Source of the DNA: an uncultured Pirellulaceae bacterium
GTDB lineage: Bacteria > Planctomycetota > Planctomycetia > Pirellulales > Pirellulaceae
Direction of reading: 5' to 3'
Assembly (NCBI GenBank): GCA_938010615.1
Contig: CALLUY010000009.1
Span: 1-64,000, forward strand
DNA length: 64,000 nucleotides
Shown here: positions 40,477-62,057 of the stretch, piece after piece
Layout of the letters: the number at the start of each line of letters is the position of its first letter
How positions within the stretch are numbered: position 1 is the stretch's first letter
The notes under the pieces: generated by a model
What the model saw: only the letters and a program-made list of their open reading frames with translations
Databases searched by the model: none
Told to the model about the DNA's origin: nothing
Made by a program: the position numbers and the translations under genes

Positions 40477-40530
40477 AATTAGCACGTCTCTCCGAGACGT
40501 CGAAAATCGCCTCGGAGAGACGAGCTACGT
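40477..40530 (+). repeat. Hairpin repeat, diverged relative of the CTCTCCGAG family
   Basis: TAGCACGTCTCTCCGAGACG faces CGCCTCGGAGAGACGAGCTA, the same arms as the copies at 47547, 60174 and 41513 but with a different short loop. It lies between the terminator and the ankyrin gene. Confidence 0.6.
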
Positions 40531-52337: not shown

Positions 52338-53306
52338 ATGAAAATCGGGCACACAACCATCGAAGAAACCTTCGCGGAAGGTTTCGGCATGCGATACACA
52401 CGTTTGATCGTTACAGCGATTGATTCGTACTGGCTCGACGCCGGTCTGAGAGAATTCTGTGGCTACGGCAGTTCCGTCATTCTTTGCGATGCTGAAGTCG
52501 GTGTCGAAGTTGCCGAACTTGAATCATCGATCGATGGTCGCCCCGGCGCATCGGTTATGGCATTCGGATTCTCTGCAGATGCACTCGCCAAAGCGATTTC
52601 AAAACGAACCGGCCAGTGCCTGATGACTTGCCCGACGACTGCCGTCTTCGATGGAATGAAAGTCGCTGGTGAAAACCCATTTGAAACGGAGCCATTCGAA
52701 GATCCAAACGCAAAACCAATTCCGCTTGGAGACCATCTTCGTTTCTTTGGCGACGGCTACCAAAAAAGCAAAATCATTGGCGATCGTCGATTGTGGCGCA
52801 TCCCGGTCATGGATGGAGAATTCATCATCGAGGACACCACGTCATGCCGAAACGGAGTCGCTGGCGGCAATTTCCTGATTCAATCCATTGACCAGCCATC
52901 CGGACTCGCAGCCGCGCGGCGAGCGGTCGATGCAATCAACAAACTGCCGGACGTGATCTTGCCGTTCCCTGGAGGCGTCGTTCGTAGCGGCAGTAAAGTC
53001 GGATCGAAGTACAAAGCGCTACGAGCATCGACGTCGCATACTTTCTGCCCAACACTCCGCGGGCGAGTCGACACGAAAGTTCACCCGGACGCGAACTGCG
53101 TTTTGGAGATCGTGATCGATGGAGCCGATTTCGATTCTGTGGCGTCAGCCATCAAAGCCGGAATCATTGCAGCAACGGATCCGCAGCAAGCTGAAGAATC
53201 CATCGTCGCCATCAGCGCCGGCAATTACGGGGGCGACCTTGGCAAACATCATTTCCATCTTCATGAAGTAATGAACAAGGACGATGTAGGAATCGCCGAT
53301 GCCTGA
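52338..53306 (+). CDS. ftr: Formylmethanofuran-tetrahydromethanopterin N-formyltransferase
   Basis: 322 residues. Homologous to Ftr/FhcD along its length: KIGHTTIEETFAEGFGMRYTR, GCKVI-type core absent but CYGYGSS-equivalent FCGYGSSVILCDAEVG, PGASVMAFGFSADALAKA, GRRLWRIPVMDGEF-like block and VDAINKLPDVILPFPGGVVR. It moves the formyl group between methanofuran and tetrahydromethanopterin in the C1 pathway used by methylotrophs and Planctomycetota. Stands apart from other C1 genes here, as often in this phylum. ATG at 52338; overlaps the channel gene by 8 bp. Confidence 0.95.
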   Translation: MKIGHTTIEETFAEGFGMRYTRLIVTAIDSYWLDAGLREFCGYGSSVILCDAEVGVEVAELESSIDGRPGASVMAFGFSADALAKAISKRTGQCLMTCPTTAVFDGMKVAGENPFETEPFEDPNAKPIPLGDHLRFFGDGYQKSKIIGDRRLWRIPVMDGEFIIEDTTSCRNGVAGGNFLIQSIDQPSGLAAARRAVDAINKLPDVILPFPGGVVRSGSKVGSKYKALRASTSHTFCPTLRGRVDTKVHPDANCVLEIVIDGADFDSVASAIKAGIIAATDPQQAEESIVAISAGNYGGDLGKHHFHLHEVMNKDDVGIADA

Positions 53307-54843
53307 CCGCAGTGATCAAATTCCACGTTGGCGCCGTCGACTGCGCAGGCTTTTTGCCAATCCGTGGGTTGAGATCGCGGTTGGCATTTTGATTCTGATT
53401 TCCGTTTCTCTGACACTGCTTGAGTTCTGGTTTGACTATCGTTTGCGAGAGAATTCTGTCGAAGGCGGATTGCTGGATACCATCTTCGGCCCGGTGACGC
53501 AGGCCAAATTTTTAGCGACCGTTTGGCTTGGCGATTTAATCACCGCCATCTTCGTCGTCGAGCTCACGCTTCGCTATCTAGCCATCGGGAGTTGGCGTCG
53601 CTTCTTCGGCGAACATTGGCTCGATGTTATCGCGACGATCCCACTGTTTCGAATTTTCCGAACGGCTCGCGCTCTTCGATTGCTGCGTCTGTTCCGGCTG
53701 TTTCGTCTGATGGGAGTCCTTTCTAGGCTTTCAACACACTATCCGTATATCCTCCGTCGAGGAGCCTTGGATTTTTTGGTCATCTGCGGATTACTGGCCG
53801 TTTCGGTTGCCTTTGGAACGATCGCGATGATGCGAGCAGAGCGACCGGCGAACGTTGCTCAAAACCCCGTCGCCAATCTTGCTCCGGCAGCAGCACTGGC
53901 TGGTTCGAGTCCGACCAACGCAGAATTCAATTTCGAAAACTCGTTTTGGTTCAGCGTCTACACGCTGTTTGCGGGTGAGCCAATTCCTGCGACGCCGCGT
54001 TCTTTTTCAGGACGCATCATCTCCGTGTTCCTGATGTTTATGGGGATGACTATTTTTGCCATTTTTGCCGGGACGGTTTCCGCGTTCATGGTCGATCGTT
54101 TACGAATAGAAGGAAAAGTTGTGAATCTGAATGAACTGGATGATCACGTGGTCATTTGTGGCTGGACGGCGAAAACCGAAACCGTCATTCGCGAGTATCG
54201 AGCAACGAAAGCGACCAAGTCGACTCCAATCGTTGTGATTTCGGAAATCGAATCGGATCAGTTGCACGAACAGGTTGCCCGGTTGCCAAACGTTTGGTTG
54301 ATGCACGACGACTTCACGAAACTAACGGCTCTCAAACGCGCCGGCATCGAAACGGCGAAGACTTGCCTCGTTCTTTCTGATACTTCCGGTGGACGATCCG
54401 AACAGGACGCCGACGCGAGAACAATCCTCGCATCCCTGACTGCTGAGAAGATCAACCCTGACGTTTACACTTGTGCCGAATTGTTCAACCGCGATTACGC
54501 ATCGCACCTAGACATTGGAAACGTCAACGACTACGTCATTAGCGGCGAATACGGAGCTCACATGTTGGCACAAGCTTCACGAAGTCGCGGTTTGATGGAC
54601 GTTCTTGGTGAATTGCTAACCAGCAAACGCGGCAACGAGTTCCATCGGCAGCCGATTCCAAACAGTTGGGTCGGAACAGATTTCAATGACCAGTTTGCAA
54701 ATGCGAAACGCGACAACGACGTCGTTCTGCTGGCGGTGCATCCAGCAGCCGACAACTCCAGCCCTGTCGTCAATCCGACGGACTACGTTTTCGCAGAAGG
54801 TGACGAAGTCGTCGTCATCAGCCGAGGTAACGTGAAACTGTAG
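53299..54843 (+). CDS. Voltage-gated-type ion channel with RCK (TrkA-N) domain and atypical pore
   Basis: 514 residues. Six-helix channel layout: S1 WVEIAVGILILISVSLTLLE, an S4-like arginine ladder RTARALRLLRLFRLFRLMG, and a pore-lining S6 VFLMFMGMTIFAIFAGTVS. Where K+ channels have TVGYGD, this protein has SVYTLFAGEPIPATPRS, so selectivity is uncertain. The cytoplasmic RCK domain (DDHVVICGWTAKTETVI) and a TrkA-C-like end (YVFAEGDEVVVISRG) are intact. ATG at 53299 overlaps ftr. Its role could be ion homeostasis or sensing. Confidence 0.85.
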   Translation: MPDRSDQIPRWRRRLRRLFANPWVEIAVGILILISVSLTLLEFWFDYRLRENSVEGGLLDTIFGPVTQAKFLATVWLGDLITAIFVVELTLRYLAIGSWRRFFGEHWLDVIATIPLFRIFRTARALRLLRLFRLFRLMGVLSRLSTHYPYILRRGALDFLVICGLLAVSVAFGTIAMMRAERPANVAQNPVANLAPAAALAGSSPTNAEFNFENSFWFSVYTLFAGEPIPATPRSFSGRIISVFLMFMGMTIFAIFAGTVSAFMVDRLRIEGKVVNLNELDDHVVICGWTAKTETVIREYRATKATKSTPIVVISEIESDQLHEQVARLPNVWLMHDDFTKLTALKRAGIETAKTCLVLSDTSGGRSEQDADARTILASLTAEKINPDVYTCAELFNRDYASHLDIGNVNDYVISGEYGAHMLAQASRSRGLMDVLGELLTSKRGNEFHRQPIPNSWVGTDFNDQFANAKRDNDVVLLAVHPAADNSSPVVNPTDYVFAEGDEVVVISRGNVKL

Positions 54844-55112
54844 AATCGTACCCAATCAACTTCGAGAGCTCAAATTCAATGGTACGCCATGCTTGGGAAA
54901 CATCGTCATTTTCGCACTCATCTCATGCCGGTCCTCGTCCGCAACGGAGACTTTAAATCGCTGGCAAAGCGTTGCCACGATCAAAAATTTGTGGATGGTT
55001 TGCAACCAAAGCATCGAGTTGCCTGTTACCAAACACAACTCGTACATCACTCGCACTCTGAGGCTTTAAATTTTGCGAGGCGGGCCGCTTTGATGCAAAC
55101 TCGAAGCGCAAG
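54844..55112. other. Spacer before the repeat element
   Basis: An open frame from 54889 runs into the repeat (ending at 55200), but has no ribosome site or domain, and its last part is translated repeat. No terminator with a T-run was seen after the channel gene. Confidence 0.4.
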
Positions 55113-55494
55113 TTTTGAAGTTACACACATTTTTATTCCGAAGGAATTTCAGCCATTAGCCGCAATGCCGTTCAATGAAGCCAAAGTCTCGGTGGCATAG
55201 GCCTCTGGCCTGTGTTCTGCATGTCCACAAGCCAGAGGCTTATGCCACAACTGCAACTGCAACGACCCTACTGAAAGGTCAAAAAGAAGGTTTACATCAC
55301 CTTCATTGAACGGTATCGCCATTAGCCGGAGGTCGAGCGTAGCGACCACCTCCGGAACCCCGCGGATGCACGATTCGATCCCTTCGGAATTATGTTTGGT
55401 TTGCCATCGACCGAATCCTGTGATGGCGCTGCGCTTATCACCGGCTAATAGCTTGAATCCCTTCGGGATGGGCCGATATAGTGCAACTTCAAAA
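55113..55494 (+). repeat. Composite hairpin element, third copy, carrying a nested insertion
   Basis: Complete ends are visible: TTTTGAAGTTACACACA at 55113-55129 and GTGCAACTTCAAAA at 55481-55494, an inverted pair. The interior matches the copies at 1-215 and 30013-30177 (ATTCCGAAGGAAT, GGAGGTCGAGCGTAGCGACC, GGTGATAAGC-type hairpin) but is interrupted at GCCATTAGCCG by a 155-bp insertion. Confidence 0.8.
55163..55317. mobile_element. MITE-like nested insertion with terminal inverted repeats and 11-bp direct repeats
   Basis: 155 bp, flanked by identical GCCATTAGCCG copies at 55152-55162 and 55318-55328. Ends are CCGTTCAATGAAG (55168-55180) and its inverse CTTCATTGAACGG (55301-55313). An inner 18-bp hairpin pairs GTGGCATAGGCCTCTGGC (55192-55209) with GCCAGAGGCTTATGCCAC (55231-55248), one mismatch. 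No coding capacity. The other copies of the host element lack it, which supports insertion. Confidence 0.7.
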
Positions 55495-55570
55495 AGCGCC
55501 CTTCGGGCTAGTATTTGCGATCGTCAGCAATCATCGACTTCCGAATCTTGAAAACTAAGCAACATCTGCC

Positions 55571-56431
55571 ATGCGAAACTGGTACGACATTCAATCGATA
55601 ACGTACATCGTACTGTATGTTGGCTTCATCATTGCGCAGTGGCAATCTGGATTTTCTTGGCTGATGTACGCCGGTTGTCTGTTTTGCTCAATCGGCGTGC
55701 AAGTCGTGCACCACAACCACATTCACGTTGGCATTTGGCACAGCAAGCGTCTCAACAACATAACCAACTTGCTGATCAGCATTAGCACGGCAGTGCCCAG
55801 CGCGATGGTTTACGGAGGTCATCTTCGCAATCACCACGTCCATCAACACGGCCCCGAAGATGAAACGCGGACGTATCGATTCGGTGGCGACCACAATCAT
55901 CTGTTGGGTTACATGCTTCATCCGATTCAAGCGTACTGCGTGCTGATCCCAAAGTTCTATCGCGAATTCCGAAACGAATGGCCGAAGCGAACTCGATTTT
56001 CCCGAGATTTGCTTTTGCAAGTTTGCTTGATTGGTATTTTGTGGTTCGGGTTGTTGATCCTTGATTGGCGAAAGTTCATCTTGCTGGTGGCAATTCCACA
56101 AGCGTTCGGTTTGCACTGGCTGCTTGGATCCAACTATCTTCAACACGCCCATTGCGATGACGAATCGGAAGTCAACTACGCTCGCAACTTCACGGGAGCC
56201 GTTAATCTGTTCTGGATGAATATCGGATTCCATACGGCTCACCACGACCACCCGCGTGCTCATTGGTCCACGCTACGAAAGCTGCATCACAAAGAATGTC
56301 AGGCGACGGACCCACGATTGTGCTGTGACAGCTTTCTCGTTTACGTGGGACGGACATTTTTCCTGAGCCCATTTCTTCCTGTCTACCGAAGCGTAAGCTT
56401 GAAAGGGAGCAAAGTGCCATCCGACATTTGA
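55571..56431 (+). CDS. Fatty acid desaturase family protein
   Basis: 286 residues. Three histidine clusters: VHHNHIHVGIWH near residue 47, GGHLRNHHVHQHG near residue 80, and FHTAHHDHPRAHW near residue 220, giving the di-iron set of membrane desaturases/hydroxylases. Hydrophobic segments flank them (YIVLYVGFIIAQWQSGFSW, LLLQVCLIGILWFGLLIL). Introduces a double bond or hydroxyl into an acyl chain. First gene of a same-strand cluster with KASIII- and FMO-like genes. ATG at 55571. Substrate unknown. Confidence 0.87.
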   Translation: MRNWYDIQSITYIVLYVGFIIAQWQSGFSWLMYAGCLFCSIGVQVVHHNHIHVGIWHSKRLNNITNLLISISTAVPSAMVYGGHLRNHHVHQHGPEDETRTYRFGGDHNHLLGYMLHPIQAYCVLIPKFYREFRNEWPKRTRFSRDLLLQVCLIGILWFGLLILDWRKFILLVAIPQAFGLHWLLGSNYLQHAHCDDESEVNYARNFTGAVNLFWMNIGFHTAHHDHPRAHWSTLRKLHHKECQATDPRLCCDSFLVYVGRTFFLSPFLPVYRSVSLKGSKVPSDI

Positions 56432-56609
56432 TGACCAATCATGTACATTGTGTGAATAGTGAAAAGCCGGCCATAAGCTAAATCGTTGGAAAACAATTAG
56501 CTTTGCTCTCTTTCAGTCGCTTGGCATCCCATTTGCTTCATTGTGTTTACCTAGCAATACCCTACGTCAAACCAAAACAATTTTGAGTTGTCACAGTAAG
56601 AGGAACAAC
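56432..56609. other. Spacer inside the lipid cluster
   Basis: 178 bp between the desaturase and the next gene, with no ORF. It ends in AAGAGGAACAAC, which is the ribosome site of the GTG-started gene. A promoter could lie here, so the desaturase may not share a transcript with the three genes that follow. Confidence 0.4.
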
Positions 56610-57485
56610 GTGCGAAATTCGAAAACGATGCATCAATTTCCTTACATCAACAAGGAAGTCAACAAAGTATTCGCTGCCGAAAAATCACACTTGGACTACA
56701 CTCTGGTTCGTCCGCTAATTCTGGTTGCTTACTTCTTCACTCGCATCGTGATTTTTCCAATCAAGTTCATTTTCCATCGTGTTCCATACGGCTTCGAAGC
56801 GTACGTAATCGATTGGTGGATGTCATTCGGCATGAAGTATTTGGCGCGACACGATGCGGCGGAACTTATGTTGCGGCACGTGCAAATCGAGCCGCTGCTC
56901 TACCGGCATGTTCTGGCTGGACGCGACGACAAACCTCCGAAAGAAGTTCGCAAACTCAACGGCATCGATGGAGACTTCGCGGTCGACGACTTGAAAGAAG
57001 TCACCGACAACAACATGACGATCGGACATGACTTGCTGTCTTATGAACTTGTCGACCGATTCGACAAAGAGAAGTTCATGGAGAACCTTGACTGGATCCG
57101 TCAACAAAAAATTGAAGACCACGAACAGTACAGCAAGAAAGCGCTCGAGATCAACAAGAAGCACTCGTTTCAACTACTCGGCGTGACGAACATCGTCATG
57201 CTCGTTGTGTTTTCCATCACCGTATTCGGAGACCTACGAACGACGATGACGGCTTTAAATTCATTTGGGTCTGATTCGATTTTGCTTTGGTGTTTGAAGC
57301 AACTTTACGTTGATGATCGACAGGCACAAATCACGTTGGACTTCTTTATGCAGGAAGTCAACAACCGCGGCCACTATAACGGCAGCGTGTTCTTCTCCAA
57401 CCCGAATCAGTATCTCTACTATCACATCGTATTTGATGAAGTCGCCTACGACATGTTGATGAATCGCCCTCCTGTCACTGCGTGA
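56610..57485 (+). CDS. Uncharacterised protein of the lipid cluster, membrane-associated
   Basis: 291 residues from a GTG at 56610 with AGAGG six bases before it; an ATG at 56628 lacks such a site. One clear hydrophobic helix near residue 40 (ILVAYFFTRIVIFPIKFIF), another near residue 190 (NIVMLVVFSITVFGDL). Between them, a charged helical segment with a YGFEAYVIDWWMSFGMKYLA block and several His (IGHDLLSYELVD; RHDAAELMLRHVQIEP). I do not recognise the family. Position between desaturase and KASIII genes points to lipid or lipid-like product assembly. Confidence 0.7.
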   Translation: MRNSKTMHQFPYINKEVNKVFAAEKSHLDYTLVRPLILVAYFFTRIVIFPIKFIFHRVPYGFEAYVIDWWMSFGMKYLARHDAAELMLRHVQIEPLLYRHVLAGRDDKPPKEVRKLNGIDGDFAVDDLKEVTDNNMTIGHDLLSYELVDRFDKEKFMENLDWIRQQKIEDHEQYSKKALEINKKHSFQLLGVTNIVMLVVFSITVFGDLRTTMTALNSFGSDSILLWCLKQLYVDDRQAQITLDFFMQEVNNRGHYNGSVFFSNPNQYLYYHIVFDEVAYDMLMNRPPVTA

Positions 57486-57498
57486 CAACTTAAATCGA

Positions 57499-58593
57499 AT
57501 GAATTGTTTTATCACTCAAACAGGTTCGTTTTTGCCCGGATCGCCCGTTGCCAACGACGACATCAACCTGCATCTTGGCACGCTCGAAGGTGAAGCGGAG
57601 GTCAAGAAAACGGTCCTTCGAATGAACGGCATTACGAGTCGGCATTACGCACAAGACATCCATCAGCAGCCAACTTACGACGTCTATCAGCTCGCCTGCC
57701 ACGCGATTCAGGACTGCCTGACGAAGCGCGGCGACATTGCGAATCCAGTTTCTTTATTGGCTGCTGGAACAACTTACGCGCCGCTTGGCGGGCCGGGATT
57801 GGCTTCGATTTTGCACGCCCAGTTACAAGAACACCAATTGCTTCGGCAACCTGTCGAGAGTCTTTCTCACGCCGGCATTTGTACTTCAGCTGCAGCGGCG
57901 ATGGTGTCCGGAATCCGTTCCGTCGCATCCGGAGAACATGAATCAGCAATTTGCGTCGGCGCTGAACATCCGTCGAGTGCCCTAAAAGCCAGTGCCATCA
58001 ATCCGGTCGATGATCGTGACCAACATGCTGAACTTCGGAAATCGCAATGGTTCATGTCGGTTTTCCTCAGGTTCATGCTATCCGACGGTGCCGGAGCGTT
58101 TCTTCTGGAAAGCCAACCAAACCCAAACCTTGGTGGCATTTCATTCAAAGTTAACTGGACTCACTCGCGATCGTTCGCTCACGAAACACCGCTTTGCATG
58201 AAGCTCGAAAACCAAGGCGTTCGACTATCTCAGGACATTTCAATCCTGTCAAAGTATTTGATGCCGACGGCTCGGAAATTCACCGCCGAAGCAATGCAAC
58301 GCCATGGCGAAGATCTGATCGACTACAGGATGATCCTGCCGCATCTTTCTTCGTTTTTCTTCCGCAAGAAAACAGAACGCGTCATGCAAGAATTCACGAG
58401 CTCTCCGGATCCGGTTCCGTATTGGACGAACTTGGCGACTGCGGGCAACACTGGTTCGGCAAGCATCTTCATTATGCTGGATCATTACATTCGGGAAAAC
58501 GAAATCAATGACGGCGACAAGTTAATGTTGTTCATTCCTGAATCTGGAAGGTTCAACTACGTGATGATTAGCTTGACTGCGGTCGTCACATGA
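57499..58593 (+). CDS. KASIII-like 3-oxoacyl synthase (FabH/thiolase fold)
   Basis: 364 residues. The active-site cysteine is in SHAGICTSAAAAMVSGI; His in RMILPHLSSFFF; Asn in TAGNTGSASIFIML, together giving the Cys-His-Asn triad of KASIII-type enzymes. N-terminal NCFITQTGSFLPGSP and MLSDGAGAFLLES are typical of the fold. It condenses an acyl-CoA/ACP with a malonyl unit, or makes an ester/amide in some subfamilies. Coupled to the next gene by a 4-bp overlap. Not housekeeping FabH by context. Confidence 0.85.
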   Translation: MNCFITQTGSFLPGSPVANDDINLHLGTLEGEAEVKKTVLRMNGITSRHYAQDIHQQPTYDVYQLACHAIQDCLTKRGDIANPVSLLAAGTTYAPLGGPGLASILHAQLQEHQLLRQPVESLSHAGICTSAAAAMVSGIRSVASGEHESAICVGAEHPSSALKASAINPVDDRDQHAELRKSQWFMSVFLRFMLSDGAGAFLLESQPNPNLGGISFKVNWTHSRSFAHETPLCMKLENQGVRLSQDISILSKYLMPTARKFTAEAMQRHGEDLIDYRMILPHLSSFFFRKKTERVMQEFTSSPDPVPYWTNLATAGNTGSASIFIMLDHYIRENEINDGDKLMLFIPESGRFNYVMISLTAVVT

Positions 58594-60161
58594 AAAAGCG
58601 ACTGGCGATCGTTGGCGGTGGCAGCAGCGGATTGATCACGCTAAAAATGGCGCTTGATTTTCTTGCAGATTGGGAAATCGTCTGTTTTGAAAAATCGGAT
58701 TCAATTGTTGGGTGTTGGGGAAATCCGTATCCGGGATTCGTGTCAACGTCCACACGATACGCAACGCAGTTCGCTTGCTATCCAATCTGCGACGCGTCTG
58801 TCAATGAAGACGGTGGAACAAGCAGAGAGGAATTTTTTCGCGAAGACGAATACGGAGCCTATCTGACTTCTTTTGCCGAACACTTTGGATTGCGACAACA
58901 TATTCAGCTCAGCACTCAGGTTGAAAACATTCGCAAGGAATCCGATCAATGGAAGATGGATGTTGGTGGCAAAACCACCAGTTTCGATGCCGTTGTGATC
59001 TGTTCGGGTTTGGCAGCGACGCCTAAACCGGTTGACTGCAAATTGCCGCAGCTGTCTGCAACGGAATTGAATCATCCAGACGGGCTGGGTCACATTTCCG
59101 GCAAGAATATTGTGGTTATCGGCGGTGGTGAGTCAGCGGTCGACTATGCAAATCGACTGGCGAAACCGATGTTAAACAACCAAGTCTTGCTATCCTTGCG
59201 CTCGGGAGTTCGAGTCAGTCCACGCTACCATCCGGTCCGCGGTGTACCGTCCGACTTTCTGCGAAATCGTTTGATGCTGTCCGTCGATCCAGATATCAGA
59301 AACTGGCTCGGACAAATTTTCGTGAAGCTGCGAATCAAGCACGAACGACGGTTCCGCAAGCTGTTTCCACACAGACAGGACGTGAAAAACTCTGAAGCGG
59401 ATCATGAAATCAAACGGCGCAAAGCTTGGACGATGCGATTGACGGCCGCCGCCAAGGATGACTTGTTCAATATGTTTCACAACAAAAGCGACGACTTCCT
59501 CGAAGCGGTCGGTGCGGAACGAATCAGAATTGTCGGAACCGCGACGAATGCTTCGTGGAACGAATTCAACGGATTTGACTCGGCAAGTGATCGAGTCTCG
59601 TTTGAGCCAGAGCTTTTGGTTCCAGCAATCGGATACCGGTCGACTCTGGGAAAACTGACTGACGAACAGATCTCACTGAGAGACTTTTATCTCGGCTGCA
59701 TCCATTGCAGCGATGTCGGTATGTTTCTGGTGGGTTTTGCCAGACCAATCATCGGAAACATTCCGACGATCAGCGAAATGCAAGCTCACTACGTTTGCGG
59801 ACAGATCGCTGGGAAGTACGAACGGCCCAATGACATTGAACGGCTTCATGCAAACGATCAAAGAAAACGTAACGCCCGATTCGCAAAGCTCGATGGAGCT
59901 TCGGTTTATCCGGTCGAGATGTTTCCCTATTGCGATCGATTGGCGAAGTTGATGAAGTTAAAGACGGGTCCCGGTTTGCTGGAGTCTCCACTGGGTTGGT
60001 GGAAGTCGAAACTATCTCCAGCTTCGACGCTGCAGTACTTTAAAAAAAGCGGCGCCGAGTCCGATGCGAGACGCTATATGCCGGCTTCATTGGTGGCTTT
60101 CATTGTTTTCATGAAGCCAATTGACTGGGCGTGGAAGGCTTGGAAGACGATACGGAATTAG
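58590..60161 (+). CDS. FAD/NADPH-dependent monooxygenase-like flavoprotein (FMO type)
   Basis: 523 residues. First Rossmann motif LAIVGGGSSGLITLKMAL at the N-terminus for FAD; VGCWGNPYPGFVSTSTR matches the FMO substrate loop; second dinucleotide site NIVVIGGGESAVDYANRLA for NADPH. Near the end a hydrophobic, basic C-terminus could associate with membranes. Oxidises a nucleophilic substrate or a ketone (Baeyer-Villiger-like) in related enzymes. ATGA overlap with the KASIII gene ties the two. Product unknown. Confidence 0.85.
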   Translation: MKKRLAIVGGGSSGLITLKMALDFLADWEIVCFEKSDSIVGCWGNPYPGFVSTSTRYATQFACYPICDASVNEDGGTSREEFFREDEYGAYLTSFAEHFGLRQHIQLSTQVENIRKESDQWKMDVGGKTTSFDAVVICSGLAATPKPVDCKLPQLSATELNHPDGLGHISGKNIVVIGGGESAVDYANRLAKPMLNNQVLLSLRSGVRVSPRYHPVRGVPSDFLRNRLMLSVDPDIRNWLGQIFVKLRIKHERRFRKLFPHRQDVKNSEADHEIKRRKAWTMRLTAAAKDDLFNMFHNKSDDFLEAVGAERIRIVGTATNASWNEFNGFDSASDRVSFEPELLVPAIGYRSTLGKLTDEQISLRDFYLGCIHCSDVGMFLVGFARPIIGNIPTISEMQAHYVCGQIAGKYERPNDIERLHANDQRKRNARFAKLDGASVYPVEMFPYCDRLAKLMKLKTGPGLLESPLGWWKSKLSPASTLQYFKKSGAESDARRYMPASLVAFIVFMKPIDWAWKAWKTIRN

Positions 60162-60173
60162 ATTGGAGGGCAA

Positions 60174-60256
60174 TTCAAAACTCGGATCGCCGAAAGTAGA
60201 TCGACTCTCCGAGACGTGTTTTGCCGTTCCAAACGACTCGGAGAGTCGAGCTACTT
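60174..60256 (+). repeat. 22-bp hairpin repeat, copy B
   Basis: Same layout as copy A: flank TTCAAAACTCGGATCGC, arms around CTCTCCGAG, loop GTTTTGCCGTTCCAA. Lies between convergent FMO-like and adenylate-kinase-like genes. Confidence 0.85.
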
Positions 60257-60265
60257 AAGCGCAGC

Positions 60266-61471
60266 CTAACCGCGGCGGATTGAAGATCCTTCGAACCGAA
60301 TGTGAATTCGATACACGGATCGCTCCTTCAGATTGAGCTTCCCTGTTTGCAAGTCAACTGAATCAGGCGTCTTGCGAATCGTCTTATCGACGCAAGCATT
60401 GAAACCTCGCTCGGAGAAAATGTCGATCAACATCGCCAAAGCCAACGGATTCTCAAACATGCTGTCCTCCGTATTCACGATCGCCCGACCGGACAACGCA
60501 TGACGCGTGATGATCGGCATAAACTTGTCCTGAACACGTTCCACCACATCCACGAACAGCTCATTGTGCTCAAGCTCATAGCTATCGAGCCGCCGAACGA
60601 GCTCCTGACGAGCATGAACGGTGATCTCTTCTGCCAACGGAATCGGACCGAGCCGATCAAACGTTTTCGGATCAAGCTCCAAAGAACTCTGATACTGAAG
60701 CTCGCGAAGAATATTTGCTTCCACATCTTCAATCGCACCCGAAGCGCTGATGAAGTGATAGTGGTAAATTTCCTGCAACGACTGCAACGCATCCCAAGTC
60801 TTTTCCTTAAACACTTGGTATCGGCGACGAGCTTTTTCGGGATCCAAATCCGTCGATCGAAGCTCCTTTAATTTACCGACGCCCGTTTCCTTAACCTTTT
60901 GATTGTGGATTTCTATTTCTTTACCGCGTTGAAGCTGACGATTGACGCTCGTCTTCTCTCCAACAAACAAAACCATTGCGTGAATCGTAGGACGGCGGAA
61001 ATTGGTCGCCAACGGAGTATCCGCATACTCGCCATGCAACAGAACCACTTTATCAACCAGCATCTTCAAGCACTCGACCTGCACTTCTGTCCGCGGGAAG
61101 CCATCAAGAACTGCACCGTCACGATATTGCGGCTTAAGCAATTCCCTCAAGACGATCCCGATGACTTCTTTGTCACCAACCATGCGGCCATCGTCTTTGA
61201 TTTTCTTCGCTTCCGGCGTATTCAAAAGACTGCTGACGACGATGGGCGGGCACGTCAAACCTCGCGCCTGCAAAATGAATCGAGTGTGCGTGCCCTTACC
61301 AGCTCCGGGAGCTCCCCCGAGCAGAATCAGTTCTTTCGGAAAGGTAAGTTTCTCGTGCCCGAACTCTTCGTTCAGCTTCCGCCAAACGGTTTTAAAGATA
61401 ACTTCTGGATCCTTGATTTCCAAATCGGAAGGAACCGCACCAGAATCAGATTTATTGTCAGGAACCGACAT
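60266..61471 (-). CDS. Adenylate kinase-like P-loop protein with extra C-terminal domain
   Basis: 401 residues. The N-terminal part has the nucleoside monophosphate kinase P-loop LLGGAPGAGKGTHTRF, the substrate-binding DGFPRTEVQVE, and an Arg-rich lid-like segment KARRRYQVFKEKTWDAL. True adenylate kinases have about 215 residues; the rest is a separate domain (FMPIITRHALSGRAIVNTED, FSERGFNACVDKTI). Role may be nucleotide binding in regulation or metabolism. ATG at 61471 avoids overlap with the lptE-like gene; no clear ribosome site. Confidence 0.8.
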   Translation of the reverse strand: MSVPDNKSDSGAVPSDLEIKDPEVIFKTVWRKLNEEFGHEKLTFPKELILLGGAPGAGKGTHTRFILQARGLTCPPIVVSSLLNTPEAKKIKDDGRMVGDKEVIGIVLRELLKPQYRDGAVLDGFPRTEVQVECLKMLVDKVVLLHGEYADTPLATNFRRPTIHAMVLFVGEKTSVNRQLQRGKEIEIHNQKVKETGVGKLKELRSTDLDPEKARRRYQVFKEKTWDALQSLQEIYHYHFISASGAIEDVEANILRELQYQSSLELDPKTFDRLGPIPLAEEITVHARQELVRRLDSYELEHNELFVDVVERVQDKFMPIITRHALSGRAIVNTEDSMFENPLALAMLIDIFSERGFNACVDKTIRKTPDSVDLQTGKLNLKERSVYRIHIRFEGSSIRRG

Positions 61472-61514
61472 AGCCAAAAACGCCAACAGAGGACCAGTAA
61501 CTTCGGCTGACAAT

Positions 61515-62057
61515 TTACCAAGGCATTTCCATTTGCCCAACGACTTCTCTGGCAATTCGGTCAATTATTTCTTGCTGCGTTGTCGCCAGAGATTGGCCAC
61601 CTTCAGGAATGAGCTCCGCATCGAAATCTAGTCGCACCGTCTGACGTTGCATCAGAGGCGTTCCCGCACGGTCGAGCCATGAAATTTCAACGCGGTTTGC
61701 AACATCCAAGGATCGAGCTTCGTCCGTGATCGTCTCGCCGGTGACCGTTTTTGACTCGCGAAGCAAACGGCCCGTGATAAAGCTGTCGGCAAGCGCTGGT
61801 TCGGTGATCGTCAGAGGTGTCGACGAGATAATTTGTTTCGTGATTGCTTCGGTCAGTCGTTGACCAAGAAACTTTCGATGCGACTGAGACTCAATCATCG
61901 CAACGTGTACTGATCGAATATCACTTCGATAAAGGTACTGATTCCCCAAGTGATATCCACGACAACCAACGGAACTGATCACGATCCCGACCACGGCAGC
62001 GACAACCAGCGTTGCGCTACACATTCGAAATTCAGATTGAGTTCGTTGATGGCTCAT
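61515..62057 (-). CDS. lptE: LptE-like LPS-assembly lipoprotein
   Basis: 180 residues. Lipobox ISSVGC after a hydrophobic segment, then GYHLGNQYLYRSDIRSVHVAM, a SQSHRKFLGQRLTEAITKQI helix and a beta-rich DSFITGRLLRESKTV. These are the features of LptE, which plugs LptD in the outer membrane. No lptD is in the window. ATG at 62057, 6 bp from the BamD-like stop. Sequence similarity in this family is weak, so the name follows architecture. Confidence 0.82.
   Translation of the reverse strand: MSHQRTQSEFRMCSATLVVAAVVGIVISSVGCRGYHLGNQYLYRSDIRSVHVAMIESQSHRKFLGQRLTEAITKQIISSTPLTITEPALADSFITGRLLRESKTVTGETITDEARSLDVANRVEISWLDRAGTPLMQRQTVRLDFDAELIPEGGQSLATTQQEIIDRIAREVVGQMEMPW

Follow-up and report, generated by a model that had tools for sequence, protein, structure and literature searches.

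We found that a gene cluster in the window (the whole 64,000-nucleotide stretch analysed, from an uncultured Pirellulaceae bacterium) is a portable accessory module, whose core consists of a DUF6999 protein, a divergent StlD/DarB-type ketosynthase (KAS) and an FMO-like flavoenzyme. These three genes are linked and conserved in nine planctomycete modules and are retained or lost together; a cytochrome P450 and a desaturase are optional additions. With a probability of roughly 45%, we infer that the module produces an uncharacterised fatty-acid-derived metabolite, for which the KAS would join two thioesters, the oxidases would modify the product and DUF6999 would serve as a partner.

Composition and distribution of the gene set

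The four genes and the spacing described in an earlier note on this DNA were reproduced: all open reading frames (ORFs) lie on the + strand, the desaturase gene ends 178 bp before the GTG start of the DUF6999 gene, 13 bp separate the latter from the KAS gene, and the KAS and FMO genes overlap by 4 bp (Table 1). Pfam E-values were 1.5e-26 for FA_desaturase, 2.8e-8 for DUF6999, 3e-7 for ACP_syn_III_C and 7e-24 for the FMO-like family, and the protein that the note had left as an unknown is now placed in DUF6999. The neighbourhood of the KAS bore out its location outside a fab operon. An Rfam search gave no match at the cluster locus, and promoter and terminator scans there returned no more sites than in shuffled sequences.

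Table 1. Features of the cluster locus, in window coordinates.
Feature	Position	Strand	Description
Stretch present in window, missing at same place in G025	54849..60265		about 5.4 kb; from synteny and junction comparison
MITE-like interspersed repeat	55161..55320		19-nt terminal inverted repeats, inner palindrome; upstream of cluster
Desaturase ORF	55571..56431	+	286 aa; three histidine boxes; PF00487
DUF6999 ORF	56610 (GTG) or 56628 (ATG)..57485	+	about 286-292 aa; two hydrophobic segments; PF22523
KAS ORF	57499..58593	+	364 aa; C128/H282/N317; NF005293, StlD 5gk0, own clade
FMO-like ORF	58590..60161	+	523 aa; hydrophobic C-terminus; PF00743
Palindromic interspersed repeat, possible terminator	60194..60256		between FMO and ADK-like gene

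The search covered 60 relatives and a phylum-wide sample of 392 genomes, and also took in Rubripirellula obstinata. DUF6999 of the window's kind is rare, occurring in 3 of the 60 relatives and 7 of the 392 phylum genomes, one of these seven being a 41-residue remnant; KAS matches with E < 1e-140 among the 392 fell in six genomes, precisely those that have full-length DUF6999. Another two of the 392 carry only canonical StlD/DarB proteins (37-38% to the window KAS). A weak DUF6999 match in G013 was set aside for its three stops. Together with G015, G059 and R. obstinata, the six genomes yield nine modules, all of which combine DUF6999, KAS and FMO, with the FMO gene of G239 broken by an insertion. 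They span at least three families, and several come from same-genus kin, leaving about five holders when counted by genus. Since the three genes recur in nine genomes and several orders, with several short stop/start overlaps, their grouping is not due to chance. Gene order varies, from KAS-FMO-P450-DUF6999 (L016) to DUF6999-KAS-FMO-P450 (L020), and in both of these loci consecutive genes overlap briefly, P450 included.

Identity of the eight other modules to the window proteins is 62-82% for DUF6999, 57-71% for KAS and 49-55% for FMO. The DUF6999 and KAS trees share one topology, from which the FMO tree deviates only at weakly supported branches. Across the nine module neighbourhoods, the conserved set includes no acyl-activating enzyme, no regulator and no exporter, and no dedicated acyl carrier protein (ACP) recurs among ORFs of at least 90 aa.

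The two remaining oxidases are patchily distributed. A P450 gene adjoins the module in five of nine genomes (G015, G059, G263, G438 and R. obstinata), where the orthologues are 55-61% identical; the genomes of the four remaining holders, the window's assembly included, yielded no orthologue anywhere. The assembly that contains the window is 84% complete, so a P450 gene could have been missed there; in any case none is adjacent to the cluster. The desaturase scored 94 bits against PF00487 (cut-off 29.7), its three histidine boxes being visible. Of the nine modules, only those of the window and G015 have it alongside (61% identity), the latter having both P450 and desaturase. The earlier note's four-gene set is thereby reduced to a three-gene core found in nine of nine genomes: co-occurrence elsewhere, set beforehand as the test of the grouping, was observed for three of the four genes and not for the desaturase, which is an optional neighbour. 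It is even conceivable, if unlikely, that the desaturase is an unrelated gene upstream of the module in two congeneric genomes with no role in the pathway, as the 178-bp gap and its presence in just two of nine genomes would allow; however, it lies on the same strand and adjoins DUF6999 in both, although the two modules sit at different genomic places.

Mobility of the module

Comparison with the closed congeneric genome G025 revealed a site at which the module is absent: the potassium-channel and ADK-like genes that border the window's cluster are convergent there, their 3' ends only about a dozen bases apart. The order FTR, channel, ADK, LptE and TPR is common to G025 and the window flanks, and the module of G015 is placed among unrelated neighbours. 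The difference between window and G025 reflects either a gain in the former or a loss in the latter, neither direction being proven. Loss as a unit is seen in G408, whose flanks are as in G296 and where a single deletion starts at DUF6999 residue 42 and ends shortly past FMO, leaving a scar (L018, 8800-8972; compared with L014) in which 41 DUF6999 residues are fused to sequence past FMO. In G239, the FMO gene is split by an IS4/5-family element (L015, 5191-7790), a natural disruption.

Interspersed repeats on both sides of the cluster fit an insertion, yet they are common in the genome: the MITE-like repeat upstream has more than 40 genomic copies at 82-98%, and the palindromic repeat downstream has eight exact-pattern copies, while the window contains further, degenerate ones at 40486, 41524 and 47576. 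A second repeat follows the MITE-like one at about 55318-55495. The flanking ADK-like gene (60266-61564, - strand) encodes a protein of 432 aa that combines an adenylate-kinase-like domain with a long additional C-terminal part and is present in 19 of 28 congeneric genomes. On the other side, at 52338-54843, a gene for formylmethanofuran-tetrahydromethanopterin formyltransferase, of the C1 pathway, overlaps a gene for an ion channel that has RCK/TrkA-N domains.

This sporadic, freely lost module would be ill-suited to membrane housekeeping, which bears on whether the KAS could be a FabH-like starter enzyme in a set for membrane fatty-acid remodelling, of which the desaturase would be the typical member. 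The KASIII C-terminal domain of the KAS and the adjoining membrane desaturase in two genomes are in keeping with such a role, but the desaturase is missing in seven of nine modules and the KAS is nearer to StlD than to FabH, making this reading very doubtful.

The ketosynthase, its partners and the predicted product

The KAS belongs to the KASIII family, as had been proposed, but is not a generic member: its features point to a divergent StlD/DarB-type enzyme in a separate clade, whose chemistry may have changed. Against the StlD/DarB model NF005293 it scored 264.7 bits in two stretches, not reaching the curated cut-off of 450, whereas canonical planctomycete StlD/DarB examples scored 515-576 bits. 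The nearest solved structure is Photorhabdus StlD (5gk0), with which the Cys-His-Asn triad (C128, H282, N317), invariant in ten homologues, is aligned; the motifs LRxMLSDGAGA and LPHxSS are also common to the KAS and StlD/DarB. About 25 residues are missing from the planctomycete KAS relative to StlD/DarB, and a very long branch (3.5 changes per column, support 100/100) sets its clade apart. Given this branch and the missing residues, the enzymes of the clade may plausibly use another substrate or form another product.

Both DarB and StlD form cyclohexane-1,3-diones by condensing two thioesters derived from fatty acids (PMC5515871). By analogy, the KAS would load an acyl chain on Cys128 and, as StlD/DarB do, join it to another fatty-acid-derived thioester drawn from primary fatty acid metabolism; the result would be a 2,5-dialkyl-cyclohexane-1,3-dione, or a beta-diketo intermediate if no ring is closed. 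Unless a DarA-type aromatase takes part, the known route would not convert this ring into a resorcinol; ring or chains may instead be oxidised by the flavoenzyme, acting with P450 and/or desaturase. An uncharacterised lipid-type product, as suggested in the earlier note, remains the likeliest output of the gene set.

These comparisons do not support assigning the module to standard dialkylresorcinol synthesis. Such an assignment would cast the KAS as DarB in a canonical dar cluster, with an unlinked or unrecognised aromatase making the resorcinol and the other enzymes decorating it, which is consistent with StlD/DarB being the nearest relatives of the KAS. In addition, R. obstinata LF1 was listed with a resorcinol cluster in a 2016 antiSMASH survey (PMC4982196); as the module KAS is the only StlD/DarB-family gene in that genome, the label probably refers to the DUF6999-KAS-FMO module. 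However, the KAS falls far under the family cut-off, lacks a segment and forms its own clade; no aromatase was recognised in any module, no ACP recurs in the set among ORFs of at least 90 aa, and a probe chosen by position in G341, matching no curated family, found no DarA candidate homologue in the nine genomes. We therefore regard a dar pathway as improbable, and the published label in R. obstinata as probably inaccurate, as these data suggest.

Loss of the missing KAS segment could, alternatively, have removed the ring-closing step, leaving an open-chain product: a head-to-head condensation, OleA-like in that both reactions are acyl condensations of the thiolase superfamily, would give a beta-keto acid or long-chain ketone for oxidation by the flavoenzyme and P450 or desaturase. 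All homology detected is to StlD/DarB and none to OleA, and OleBCD-type genes do not recur in the nine neighbourhoods, so that such a product seems rather unlikely.

The FMO-like protein scored 84.6 bits against PF00743, and an alignment of eight homologues displayed two Rossmann-type dinucleotide-binding motifs, GGGSSG close to the N-terminus and GGGES(A) farther along; in the same number of aligned sequences, read by eye, the FMO/BVMO fingerprint FxGxxxHxxxW or FxGxxxHxxxY/F was missing at its expected place. The hydrophobic C-terminal stretch is kept in the FMO-like enzymes.

Homology of the planctomycete proteins to DUF6999 is modest, at 20-35 bits: PF22523 scores were 33.6 bits for the window, 34.8 for G015 and 28.4 for G059, all above the gathering cut-off of 27, and 20.7 for G263, below it. 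Seven residues (H85, E89, H135, D136, H166, H267 and E272) are invariant across ten DUF6999 homologues, and these His, Glu and Asp side chains would fit a metal site. DUF6999 may be an obligatory membrane partner of the KAS, possibly itself a metal-dependent oxidase. Structure predictions of DUF6999 and of KAS from three-sequence alignments reached a pLDDT of just 39, too low to serve for a fold search, and talin matches in a PDB search with DUF6999 were attributable to chance. Among the papers searched, none dealt with DUF6999, or with a KASIII alongside an iron-containing redox enzyme.

A bolder proposal, tentative and somewhat on the unlikely side, is that DUF6999 is an unrecognised membrane metal oxidase, with four invariant His plus Glu/Asp, whose substrate is the nascent product made by a ketosynthase of a new subfamily. 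KAS and DUF6999 would then define a class of lipid natural products that is new and spread across several phyla, the oxidase being interchangeable: a flavoenzyme, a P450, a desaturase or a heme-oxygenase-like protein.

Relatives outside the phylum and comparison with known systems

By coverage and identity, the best plasmid match to the KAS was in pTHAF3_a of Pseudoalteromonas sp. THAF3, in an operon encoding a membrane protein, a KAS (35%), a heme-oxygenase-like protein and DUF6999 (322 bits). Like the planctomycete module, this operon unites KAS and DUF6999; unlike it, a heme-oxygenase-like protein replaces the flavoenzyme/P450 and the KAS has no deletion. An hhalign comparison of the planctomycete DUF6999 with the Pseudoalteromonas protein, using shallow profiles, gave no support, and plasmid tblastn with the window DUF6999 found no match. 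Among 14 control genomes, DUF6999 occurred in Caulobacter vibrioides only, which was also one of three with an StlD/DarB-family match. DUF6999 appears tied to one particular kind of ketosynthase in two or more phyla, the cross-phylum evidence comprising one plasmid and two control-genome tallies, and so becomes testable. The cluster search proposed earlier succeeded in Planctomycetota, while the plasmid-borne StlD/DarB-type genes found for Bacteroidota were in other contexts, without DUF6999. Viral contigs yielded no relatives. The cultured type strain R. obstinata CECT 8602 carries the module, so the product can be sought there.

Like StlD/DarB of the Photorhabdus stilbene and the dialkylresorcinol, flexirubin and arcuflavin clusters, the KAS is a condensing enzyme of the KASIII family with a C/H/N triad and expected lipid precursors. 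It differs from these systems in scoring below the cut-off, in its separate clade, in having no recognised DarA and, among ORFs of at least 90 aa, no recurring ACP beside it, and in always occurring with DUF6999 and the FMO-like enzyme. A canonical StlD/DarB-type cluster with a large synthase, several ketosynthases and an ACP is present in the planctomycete G341 (L085, 1-12232), and its 342-aa protein of no curated family may be the aromatase.

A Streptomyces plasmid cluster (L026, 7721-16149) encodes an StlD/DarB-type KAS, two ACPs, a FAD_binding_3 oxygenase, an SCP2 protein, FabF, P450 and FabG. Such clusters share the StlD/DarB-type KAS, flavin oxygenase and P450 with the module, but their flavoenzyme is of the FAD_binding_3 type, they contain two ACPs, FabF and FabG, and they have no DUF6999. 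Within the planctomycetes, alkylresorcinol operons encode a type III PKS, a methyltransferase and a FAD oxidoreductase (PMC10896814); these are likewise operons for a lipid-derived metabolite with a FAD oxidoreductase in the same phylum, but the type III PKS is of another condensing-enzyme family and a methyltransferase is present. Set beside the known StlD/DarB-type loci, the module would be a variation: a lipid-derived natural-product locus whose ketosynthase is a divergent member of the StlD/DarB type and has DUF6999 as its partner.
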